This document shows, piece after piece, positions 10,433 to 15,632 of a DNA stretch of 64,000 nt (within the stretch, counting starts at the first letter, position 1; the number at the start of each line of letters is the position of its first letter). The DNA comes from Paramecium tetraurelia (taxonomy: Eukaryota; Ciliophora; Oligohymenophorea; Peniculida; Parameciidae), in contig NW_001799510.1 of the NCBI RefSeq assembly GCF_000165425.1, forward strand, positions 529,459 to 593,458, in the 5' to 3' direction. The position numbers and the translations under genes are program-made. The notes below the pieces were generated by a model, which was not told the origin of the DNA, searched no databases, and saw nothing but the letters and a program-made list of their open reading frames with translations.

Positions 10433-11581
10433 TCATTATTATTATTACTTAAATTATTAATCAACATCTTCATCTTATTATTAATTATCTTCCCCTTCAT
10501 ATAATTATTATTTATTTTCTTATTCATCTTCCTCATCATTTTCATCGATTTATTCCACTCTTTCATAGTCTTTCTCTGCCTCATCATCATCGATGAATAA
10601 ACTTGGGTCGTACACAAATAAGGCTCTTCCTGTCATTTAAGAATTACCTCCAGTTTATTTGGCACCTAAAATGATTTTAAATATTTTTGTACCTTTTTTC
10701 TTCTATTCTTCTATTTTTTATTTTTCCGCTTCTAATTTTTTTTTTTCAGCTCTCTCTTGTTTCCATTTTTCAAAAACTTCTTTAGTTATTTTAGTTCCTC
10801 CCTTTTATAATTATGAAATTTATTCATCTATTTCTTCTTCTAGATCACCTTCTTGTTTTTGTTTTGACTCTTCTTTCTTTCTAAATACATATCCTTAAGG
10901 TAGGCAATGCTTATAATGGCAGGTCATCCCATTGGGACACACCCATCTCCATCCGTATTTACCTTTCTCCAAGGCGTCTAAGAAATAATCACAGACTTTT
11001 GCTGATGGAATTTGACTAGTCTATTCAATTATAGTATACCTTTTATATGTCTTCTCATTAGCCTCAACGATATCCTTCAAAGTCTTCTCATCCCAATTTT
11101 AGCAGGAGTCCCATTCATCACCCATTTATTCCCTCTAATCAGTATATAAATCAAGCATTGCAGTTTTTTATTCCAAACTCATATCATGAGAATACATACA
11201 TTTCTTACCCTTCTAACACAGACCTAGCCTTATCATATCAACCTACCTTATTTGTAATATTCACATAAAATTGATTTTGGGTCCACTTCCTCTTCAGATT
11301 CTTCCTCCTTTACTTTTTCGACTGTTTTATATAGTGATTGCATTAATCTGTCTTCCTCTTCCAATTGCCTCTCAATTTTTTTTCTTTCATATTCCTCTGA
11401 TTATAATTTTGACAAAGAAACTCCGCTATGCTTCACTTATTGTGCTACTCCTTTACAAAAACTAAAATAATACAGAAAATGAATACTTTTAGACTTGTTT
11501 GCTTTTGTTTTTATTTTTTAGGCCAAAAGTTCTGTCTTCAATAATCTTTTCTTGTTTTTTCTTTTCAGACTTTTTACTCAT
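10433..11581 (-). CDS. ZC3H15: ZC3H15/DFRP1 (Tma46), DRG1 partner, two CCCH zinc fingers
   Basis: 366 aa with introns 11462-11486 and 11224-11246. It starts [20 protein letters not shown] and continues [11 protein letters not shown], the conserved DFRP1 opening. First CCCH finger: [19 protein letters not shown]. Second, family-specific: [18 protein letters not shown] then [16 protein letters not shown]. An acidic, glutamine-rich tail follows. DFRP1 stabilises the translational GTPase DRG1 and associates with ribosomes. All zinc ligands are present. The tail repeats TAA codons (polyglutamine). Confidence 0.9.
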
Positions 11582-12070: not shown

Positions 12071-15000
12071 TCATTGTTATGCAATTTTTCTAAAGGGCAT
12101 TATGGTGTCCAATTGCCTTTTGCTGATTCTAGGACTAAATAAGTGTCTGTGTATATTGATTGTACTCTAAGTGCTGATTTGTCTTGCCGAGTTTTCTTTA
12201 TTTTATCTAGTGGTAGTTGTGCTAATGGTTTTCCTTTCGGTCAATTGCTTCTTGGAAGTGAAGTATTTCTTATCCATATCAAATAAAGGCGTGAAAGTCT
12301 CTGTCATTATTTTTCTGTGTCTTGGTGATATCATTCTAAGTAGTCTTAAATTATACCTTTTTTAAAGCAATTCATGGTTAAAAAGATTTGAATAATCCTC
12401 TCCAAACACTGTCTTATACAACTCAATTGAAGTCTATGTTTTTTTTGAACTAGGCTTCTATATTTTTTTATCGTTTAATAACCTTTACAATCTTGAATGA
12501 TGAAACCTCTTCTCCAAAGATTACGCGTCCTTTTTCTCGAATTATTATATAGTTTCAACAGGTAATAAATATAATTCACACTGAGAAGACTTAGAAACAG
12601 CTCTGTATTCTCTAGGAATGGATTACTAAACCTCTTCATGTCCAAAGACGCAACCTACTTAAAGTAAGGTAATTGAGACAGTTCTGTTCTTAGGAAATAC
12701 TTTGAGCAATTCAATTTCTCCTTGCTTGATAAAATAGATATATTCTGGATTTGAATTTTCCATATAAATGATACTAAACATAGTAGGCTTTTAAACGACT
12801 ATATACTCCAGAATGCCTCTAAGTCGTTTATCATTTAATTTGCTAAAGAGTTCAAAGTTTCTGAGGAGCGAAATCTTTTCATTCTTCACCTGATCATGAT
12901 ATTATTATAAAATAGCTCTGAAATCCGGATTGGCTAAAGTAATCATCGCTGTATCCTAAGTGCACAACACAGTGGCTGTCCTAGTCACATTGCCTATAAG
13001 AGCAATCTCCCCGAATTGGTCTCCTGAACCACACATATTCACTATGTGCAAACTTGGAAAGAGTCTTTTCACCAAATTATCCAACCATTTATCAACTGAT
13101 ATTCTATTGGGATTATTGGTATATTCTTCAATTAAGGATTCTTAATCGACTTTTTGAATATCTACAAAAATCAACTATATAATTGAATAATTACTGATCC
13201 CTAGAAAATTGCCATAAGCCTGTGCCATTATGATATCCTTCAGAGCCCTATTATTAAAGGCTGACAAGCGGGGACTACAGACTGCTGATGATCTTCTTTG
13301 CTGGGTGGGATTAGAATCGATCCCCTTTTAATATTCTTCTATAACTTATTGATGAGTAATGTTTTTATCGTTTGGACATAGAATTGCAACTTACCCCTTT
13401 AGAATTACATAAAACTATTCAACATTATTAGAACCTACCAATTAATGGGATTTTACCATAATGAAATACGACCTCTCCTTTTTATAATTCCTTCAGCTAG
13501 ATTTTTTTAAGCATCTAACAATATAATGCTGGATCAAATAACTACTATTTTTCTCTGAAGAATTTAAGATCCTAAACTCCCTTTGCAATTACATCAATAA
13601 TGTCCTTGCTCCTATTGCGATAAGCCAATGCCTGTTTCAAATCAATCAGACTTTTTTCTTAATCCATTATAATATTATAGTTATAAATCAACAAACTCTG
13701 AAATTCTGGCCACCCACCCACCTAGTCTTGTTTTCATCCCTATGTTTGAAATCTGCCGGATTGCTGTATGGATTGTCATACAAAATAAAGGGAGTCCCCC
13801 CCTTAATAGTGCTCACAACACTCGTCCTGATGCTTCTTGGTCCAATTATTTATTTATCCTTTTATTTCTGATCCAACCTATCCTTTTCCAAATTTGTAAT
13901 ATATGGAGATGAGCATCTGACTATTGGATGTTCTCTGCACAAATCATAATCCTCCTTAGTAGTGCCCTTTGATACTCTGGATTTTGCAGTTTGAACTCTA
14001 GTCAATTTAAATGTCCGACTTTAAGTTGTAGATTAGGGTCTCTATCTAATCCTCTGTCCAGTACTGGCTAACATTGAGGTGTTCATAGTTCCAGGTACCT
14101 ATACAAAATCGAATAACAATAGATACCCACAAAGGCTCATTCTCAGGCAATAATTATTCATCTATATTGGGATGCAACATCTATCTAATTTCAGCAGCTG
14201 TTTTATTGAACTTCTCAGTTGTATCCCTATGTTCATGATTCAATTTGGTTGAAAACTTAGCGAACTTAGACTTCTCCAGATCAGTCTCCTCTGTTGATTG
14301 CTTAGTCCTTGGAGACTGCTTCTATCTCATAGTTTTCATAGCCTCTTGCAATTGTCCTTGATCATTTATAGCATTATTCATAACGATCTCCAATTTCTTT
14401 GCCTTTTTACCTGTGAATCCCACATGCTTAAATTTAGTCAACACTTCAAAATTAAAAACCGTTCTCTCACCCTTCTATTAGCTCTCTGCTTATTATTTAG
14501 TCATATTCTCCAAATCTAATTTGTTTTTTCTTAAATCATTATTAGCTTATTAGATAGTTAATGGTTTATTAACACAAGATCGTATTTAAATCAAATAATG
14601 GATAATGAAATTCCTAAGGATTGATTGTGTTTCTGGATATTTGGGATTAATGTCAAATTGTAAACCCACAATATTTTCATTTACTGTAATGACTTGAGGT
14701 CCTTTTGATGAATCTGCTAAAATAACAAATGTCTTCTTTGGATTTAATACGTTGAATGAATGGATGTCCCATGCATGTTTAGAATGAACTAAAAATTCTT
14801 ACTTTACATCCTTAAATAAGTAATTTTAAACAAAGTTCTTTTTTATCATGCATATTTCCTCATCCTATGTGGATGTATAAAGCCCATAAATTTCCTTTAT
14901 TTTCTAAGGCTTATAAACTGGAGCCTATAACATATACTTTCCAACTGTATTAAACTCTTCAACAGCTCTTCGAGAGTGTATACCACAATTCGCTATTGGT

Positions 15001-15632
15001 ATCCAGCAATTTGCTGATTCAATCTTATCGAAGTAGATTCCATAGAGATCCCCTGTTATGCTGTCTAAAAAATATTCATTCCTTGTTATTTAATCTAGTG
15101 ACTTTTGCAGTTTGCTCATATCACCAAGAGGACCACCTTAGGGACCATTTACTACTTCAACTGGCTAAACATATTAATAAAATTATTCTTACAGTTTCTA
15201 AGTTCGTAGCTACAAAAAACACCAATGCTTGCATGGCTCCAGCTGTGGCCAATAAAACCTTATTAGTTCTTAGACACATTCTAATAAGCACCATAACCTA
15301 ATATATATATATATGAATGAGTTTACTTTTTTTAAATGTTTGGACCATGGTCTAAGGTTTGCATCTATTTCTATGAAAACAAAATCTATGAAGTTAAATT
15401 AATTCGCAGCCTCTTATTTAGAATAACCTGAATCTTGATCGTAAAGGAATTCATCTAAATCATTTGCATCTCTAGAAAAAAATTCAGTCTCCGTGTCCAG
15501 CAATTCTTTTTAATTCAAAAATAACTATTTATATTGCAGAAGGTTTACTTTTCGTATTTATCCGCAATATCGTTCAAATTATTGTTTACCAGTTTCTGAT
15601 TTCCCATATCCATTTACAATTAATATTCTCAT
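12071..15632 (-). CDS. Degenerate class I glutamine-amidotransferase-like domain fused to cyclic-nucleotide-binding domains
   Basis: 1144 aa. Five introns (15298-15326, 15165-15192, 14099-14126, 13698-13717, 13435-13456) bring the length to an exact multiple of three. Residues 1 to about 290 look like a class I amidotransferase fold: MRILIVNGYGKSETG at the start, a strand-loop-helix NKVLLATAGAMQALVFF where the GxCxGMQ nucleophile elbow should be, and VGLQFDINPKYPETQ where GxQFHPE is expected. The catalytic Cys and His are both missing. Cyclic-nucleotide-binding domains follow. The clearest phosphate-binding cassette is FGEIALIGNVTRTATV, with the Glu and Arg needed for ligand. A second CNBD near the end (IKQGEIELLKVF) has a weaker cassette. 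No kinase or channel domain follows. Confidence 0.75.

Follow-up and report, generated by a model that had tools for sequence, protein, structure and literature searches.

Locus and gene models

The locus analysed here raises the question of whether a reading frame that resembles a glutamine amidotransferase without the catalytic residues and, immediately downstream on the same strand, cyclic nucleotide-binding domains (CNBDs) belong to a single fused protein, and what the amidotransferase-like part could be doing. We addressed this question for a 64,000-nt stretch of Paramecium tetraurelia DNA (C189:529459-593458, hereafter the window) in the context of its own genome (69 Mb, 231 contigs). 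At this locus, TAA and TAG encode Gln (code 6) and most introns measure 20-33 nt; both features fit Paramecium. In P. tetraurelia, about 98% of all introns fall in the range of 20-30 nt, and a handful of introns near 80 nt contain snoRNAs (PMC5485702).

An earlier reading of the sequence alone (hereafter, the sequence-only reading) described one frame that runs from the amidotransferase-like part into the CNBDs. The frame starting at 15632 on the minus strand is indeed present, but it ends at a TGA (13690-13688), and the CNBDs follow a new ATG at 13667 in another frame. We modelled the locus as two genes, with C155 denoting the contig that carries a duplicate of both (L041) and C92 the contig with a third relative of gene 2:

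13688..15632, minus strand: gene 1, 611-aa protein (spliced translation; 14 relatives modelled in the same genome)
15632 (ATG) and 13690-13688 (TGA), minus strand: start and stop of gene 1, with four introns (24, 29, 28 and 28 nt)
15525..15548, minus strand: gene 1 intron 1, 24 nt, GTA..TAG (C155: 24 nt, same place)
15298..15326, minus strand: gene 1 intron 2, 29 nt, GTA..TAG (C155: 24 nt, same place)
15165..15192, minus strand: gene 1 intron 3, 28 nt, GTA..TAG (C155: 24 nt, same place)
14099..14126, minus strand: gene 1 intron 4, 28 nt, GTA..TAG (C155: 29 nt)
13668..13687, minus strand: spacer from the gene 1 stop to the gene 2 start, 20 nt (C155: 19 nt)
12071..13667, minus strand: gene 2, 506 aa spliced, two CNBDs (Pfam PF00027; homologues at C155 and C92)
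13667 (ATG) and 12073-12071 (TGA), minus strand: start and stop of gene 2
13435..13456, minus strand: gene 2 intron 1, 22 nt
13162..13194, minus strand: gene 2 intron 2, 33 nt (C92-guided spliced alignment; C155: 34 nt, same place)
12336..12356, minus strand: gene 2 intron 3, 21 nt, in frame (C92-guided spliced alignment; C155: 21 nt, same place)

The five introns of the sequence-only reading fit in length (22-29 nt) and borders (GTA..TAG), and comparison with C92 indicates two additional in-frame introns in gene 2, of which intron 2 is easy to overlook because it is in frame and contains no stop.

A paralogous family of gene 1

A search of the genome with gene 1 identified 36 matching stretches in at least 15 genes, namely, the gene in the window, its C155 duplicate and 13 others. 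The 14 relatives were spliced by protein-to-DNA alignment, with the tail models guided by the tails of sister genes; their domain part contains 57 introns of 20-33 nt. The alignment of all 15 members (A1) includes 40 invariant columns. In the phylogenetic tree, the window and C155 genes group with those on C66, C224, C41, C23 and C226 (7 rows, support 95/93), and the C80 gene forms a long branch. Between the window and C155 copies of gene 1, dN/dS is 0.029 over the first 345 codons, and the protein is, therefore, under strong purifying selection; for five other close pairs in the family, the values are 0.014-0.056.

Gene 1 comprises an amidotransferase-like domain (residues ~1-322) followed by a long tail with conserved motifs. 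Within the domain, a middle stretch is rich in residues that are invariant across the family (TGDLY..W..N.GIH..GKY..KAP.Y). The tail is poorly conserved apart from an HxGF... motif (13/15 members), LHPS.D..WVPG (as LHP...WVPG, in all 15) and a C-terminal F..K.KW....F.V (7/15); intron 4 directly precedes the VPG of the WVPG motif. Directly downstream of the gene 1 relatives on C89 (L050) and C198 (L052), we noticed by eye a protein-kinase-like frame on the same strand, which on C89 shows GIIGKGSYGVVLKGQNKETGE.

Searches of Pfam, PHROGs and PDB sequences with gene 1 returned nothing informative. Three Pfam matches below 0.05, all that the family gave, were each to a single member and were taken as chance: Agglutinin in the domain (0.022) and, in the tail, Trs65 (0.0015) and Ntox15 (0.017), the last two below cut-off. 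The comparison of A1 with prokaryote genomes produced 30 pattern matches, none of them to a relative, and among the titles and abstract openings of the retrieved literature none describes such a family.

Remote similarity to class I glutamine amidotransferases

We compared A1, using hhalign, with an alignment of 87 amidotransferases (7 E. coli sequences plus the best 80 of 528 relatives, all GuaA loci). The E value was 1.9e-4 to 2.6e-4, and none of 200 column shuffles did as well (score 35.2 against 21.3 for the best shuffle); with the 7 E. coli amidotransferases alone, E was 0.011-0.013, again unmatched by any of the 200 shuffles (24.0 against 20.2). The profile signal is driven by the C-terminal half of the domain, which by itself gave E values of 6.9e-6 and 1.4e-3 with the two amidotransferase alignments (0/200 shuffles each). 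The N-terminal half, which includes the nucleophile elbow, is weak by itself because 7/200 and 1/200 shuffles matched it.

The shared features are the order of elements and, in particular, two segments that lie in the correct order along gene 1, the elbow and a strand-loop resembling GVQFHPE. The closest class I (triad) amidotransferase is GuaA, with TrpG/PabA, HisH and CarA also comparable:

15229..15252, minus strand: elbow equivalent LATAGAMQ (alignment to amidotransferase profiles)
14631..14657, minus strand: FDINPKYPE, equivalent of the FHPE site (alignment to amidotransferase profiles)

Unlike these enzymes, gene 1 carries a long tail, it yielded no synthase domain, and its residues ~124 to 240, which hold FLD..TGDLY...W..N.GIH...GKY..KAP.Y, are unaligned to amidotransferases in the alignments shown.

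Among NCBIfam models, the 15 members matched 9 families at E up to 1, and 5 of these are class I amidotransferases, although related models are not independent and all matches are below cut-off where shown; the top amidotransferase match, GuaA with the window protein, had E = 0.0046 and scored 16.4 bits where the cut-off is 172. None of the 15 members had a Pfam amidotransferase match with E of 1 or less, the family profile found none at E up to 10 among 177,635 PDB sequences, and the 9 matches of a whole-genome PF00117 search included none at the loci of the family. In single-protein hhalign comparisons with 128 E. coli proteins, from which short or cut genes had been excluded beforehand, the amidotransferases do not stand out, ranking 2 (HisH), 17 (CarA), 64 (PyrG), 67 (TrpD), 82 (GuaA), 87 (PabA) and 109 (PuuD). 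Global-mode hhalign gave no useful alignment. Scans of viral contigs for further amidotransferases and decoy families yielded 0, 3, 0 and 2 loci, which were not used in the comparison. AlphaFold2 without an alignment, run on the unspliced window reading (pLDDT 31) and on one exon piece (pLDDT 30), added no support for the open alpha/beta flavodoxin-like fold of the superfamily.

Taken as a claim about ancestry, the amidotransferase plan without catalytic residues proposed by the sequence-only reading is moderately supported by the shuffles and the NCBIfam matches, together with the missing Cys and His described below, against the silence of Pfam, of the PDB profile search and of structure prediction. 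We conclude that a class I glutamine amidotransferase is the probable ancestor of the gene 1 domain, the similarity being remote. The main competing explanation holds that the domain is another alpha/beta domain, flavodoxin-like or Rossmann-like, with convergent likeness to amidotransferases. The weak N-terminal half, the lack of Pfam and PDB matches and the undiscriminating single-sequence ranking fit such convergence, which nevertheless appears unlikely given the C-terminal half signal, unmatched by shuffles, the several class I models among the NCBIfam matches and the correct order of the segments.

Loss of the catalytic residues

The two motifs picked out by the sequence-only reading, an elbow with no Cys and an FHPE-like site with no His, read as it had described them, and the alignment extends this to the family. 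Setting Gln117 of gene 1 on Gln90 of GuaA assigns residue 113 to the place of GuaA Cys86; this position is occupied by Ala in the window and C155 proteins (2/15), Ser in 10/15 and Gly in 3/15, and by Cys in none. The place of the catalytic His is Asp300 in gene 1, and across the family it holds D in 3 members, A in 3, S in 2 and E in 7, with His in 0/15; moreover, there is no His within residues 294-310 in any of the 15. The third triad place is Asn in gene 1 and Glu in 3/15 members. Compared with class I enzymes, gene 1 shows Cys to Ala, His to Asp and Glu to Asn replacements. The Glu is dispensable in some enzymes, and CPS and GatD require both Cys and His (PMC5871853). As aligned, both residues that these two enzymes need are missing from all 15 members, and comparison across the family demonstrates their loss. 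In the C80 protein (L047), Cys residues are present at 112 and 114, flanking the elbow position (window counterpart 15193-15297).

The prevalence of Ser at position 113 suggests a different scenario, in which the sisters would be active hydrolases of the Ser type within the same superfamily, and gene 1, with its Ala, would have branched off from them and lost activity. His192 and His264 are invariant in the family and could, in principle, serve such hydrolases; however, His is missing from the canonical place in all members, three of them have Gly instead of Ser, and His264 (in WDIH) aligns with a GuaA His outside the triad. We consider active sisters quite unlikely.

Gene 2, a tandem CNBD protein

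Both CNBDs of gene 2 pass the PF00027 cut-off of 27.5 bits (2.5e-13, 50.2 bits; 1.9e-9, 37.8 bits):

12968..13015, minus strand: CNBD1 phosphate-binding cassette FGEIALIGNVTRTATV, Glu and Arg present (sequence; Pfam; aligns to the CNBDs of kinase G, 5dyk)
12593..12646, minus strand: CNBD2 cassette position FGHEEVQQSIPREYRAVS, canonical Glu missing (sequence; Pfam)

A ligand-competent cassette follows the pattern FGE...R-T/A-A, by which CNBD1 would be competent to bind either cAMP or cGMP; the downstream CNBDs and the one ligand-competent cassette noted by the sequence-only reading are indeed present. A Thr after the cassette Arg leans towards cGMP, and CNBD1 has such a Thr. CNBD2 probably does not bind a cyclic nucleotide because the canonical Glu of its cassette is missing.

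The top PDB matches of gene 2 are cGMP-dependent kinases (1.9e-15 for 5dyk). With protein kinase G and PKA-R, it shares the tandem CNBDs and the cassette FGEIAL...RTATV; unlike them, it has a degenerate CNBD2 cassette, an insertion of ~100 residues inside CNBD1, and no kinase domain among the Pfam matches at E up to 10. The genome as a whole abounds in CNBDs: a first-look search with PF00027 gave 611 candidates, and all 150 that were scored exceeded the cut-off.

In the C155 copy of gene 2 (L041, C155:208000-217000), one nucleotide is inserted, by comparison with the window copy, at ~212610 of the contig, in the part corresponding to the CNBD1 insertion, which makes this copy either an incipient pseudogene or the product of an assembly error. 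After the frameshift, dN/dS between the two copies is 0.087 over 361 codons.

Two genes, not one

The boundary between the two genes can be assessed from the duplicate, the paralogues of gene 1 and the free-standing relative of gene 2. In the window, the gene 1 TGA lies 20 nt ahead of the gene 2 ATG, which is in another frame; the C155 duplicate keeps both the TGA and the ATG with a gap of 19 nt, so that the frame relation of the two genes is not kept between the copies. We rejected fusion by stop read-through on these grounds: the frame of the ATG differs from that of the TGA, and differently in each copy.

To cover fusion by splicing, we listed every GT..AG intron of 15-119 nt that would join the two frames. 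Donors were allowed between -150 and +2 nt relative to the first stop base, and acceptor ends between -5 and +89 nt relative to the second ATG. This procedure gave 10 possible in-frame introns for the window copy and 15 for C155, with only 4 site pairs in common, 70-116 nt long. The sole candidate shorter than 56 nt (35 nt, with an AAG acceptor) belongs to the window and is missing from C155. Among these candidates, there is no joining intron of normal Paramecium size present in both copies, and fusion by intron was likewise rejected.

The end of gene 1 is shared with some of its relatives:

13688..13762, minus strand: C-terminal motif NPADFKHRDENKTRWVGGQNFRVC-stop, natural end of gene 1 (homologous in C155 and five paralogues)

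The genes on C66, C224, C41, C23 and C226 have ends homologous to the gene 1 end FKHRDENKTRWVGGQNFRVC-stop, for example, FRVIQKDKWITNKNFKV-stop, with a TGA directly after; together with the window and C155 genes, these make up the 7 of 15 members with the full motif, which is not complete in the other 8. Conversely, the third relative of gene 2 (C92:38130-39637) opens with its own ATG (MFYEHLKQVF..), is preceded by AT-rich DNA (17% G+C over 316 nt) and, across 6.5 kb, lacks any match to gene 1 better than E 5. From 13 seeds we built a CNBD profile, which recovers C155 and C92 and detects no CNBD at E up to 1 at the loci of the 13 other gene 1 paralogues.

A gap of 20 nt is tight but workable because Paramecium UTRs average 21.7 nt (5') and 44.6 nt (3') and overlap between UTRs has been described (PMC5485702). 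In so compact a genome, with as little as 20 nt between neighbours, an apparent fusion can arise from gene prediction, and by the comparisons above the joined architecture is such an artefact. The sequence-only reading had envisaged a possible split into separate genes near 14504; comparative evidence does indicate two genes, with the split at ~13,690-13,667.

Two separate genes might still encode products that cooperate, the tight spacing ensuring co-expression and a cyclic nucleotide bound to protein 2 controlling protein 1. The gene order and the spacing (20 and 19 nt) are retained in both duplicates, but order can persist after a duplication without any function. In addition, gene 2 is frameshifted in C155 next to an intact gene 1, the C92 relative has no adjacent gene 1, and the CNBD profile detects none at the 13 other gene 1 loci; we find such cooperation distinctly improbable, and cyclic-nucleotide gating of gene 1 has no support in these comparisons. 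The original proposal of a single gene, in which an inactive amidotransferase domain and CNBDs, joined in one protein, form a cAMP/cGMP-gated binding module, draws on the shared strand, the 20-nt distance and the order repeated in the duplicate, and is exceedingly improbable in view of the conserved TGA, the shifting frame relation, the lack of a common joining intron under 70 nt, the gene 1 end shared with paralogues and the free-standing C92 homologue.

A putative pseudo-amidotransferase family

The reading we prefer, with a probability of roughly 0.6, is that the locus consists of two head-to-tail genes, of which gene 1 encodes an amidotransferase-derived, non-catalytic scaffold or binding protein and gene 2 a separate tandem-CNBD protein. 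Under this reading, the N-terminal domain of gene 1 would be a class I amidotransferase descendant that lost the Cys-His-Glu triad, would no longer produce ammonia from glutamine and might have become a rigid binding or scaffold module, with the tail motifs docking partners; the scaffold role is what we infer from the combination of these features. Gene 2 would function independently, with CNBD1 competent for binding and CNBD2 not.

A vertebrate precedent is CPS1, in which the amidotransferase-like domain has lost the catalytic Cys and is kept, as a non-catalytic part, for structure or regulation. The gene 1 domain appears to be non-catalytic in the same sense; CPS1, however, retains its synthetase part, and the Pfam scan of gene 1 detects none.

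We lean towards the view that the genes described here constitute a ciliate family of pseudo-amidotransferase scaffolds with at least 15 members, which lack Cys and His, share tail motifs, expanded by duplication, evolve under strong purifying selection and are unnamed in the searched libraries. With the fusion rejected, what remains is a sizeable and strongly constrained family of apparent pseudoenzymes. If the ancestry holds, a ciliate would here have redeployed the fold of a metabolic enzyme on a large scale for a task other than catalysis, and the 15 paralogues with their conserved tail motifs offer clean targets for localisation and knock-down experiments, the organism being a tractable one.

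Elsewhere in the window, reading frames at 10433-11577 on the minus strand show the spacing of CCCH-type zinc fingers, reminiscent of the ZC3H15/DFRP1 family.
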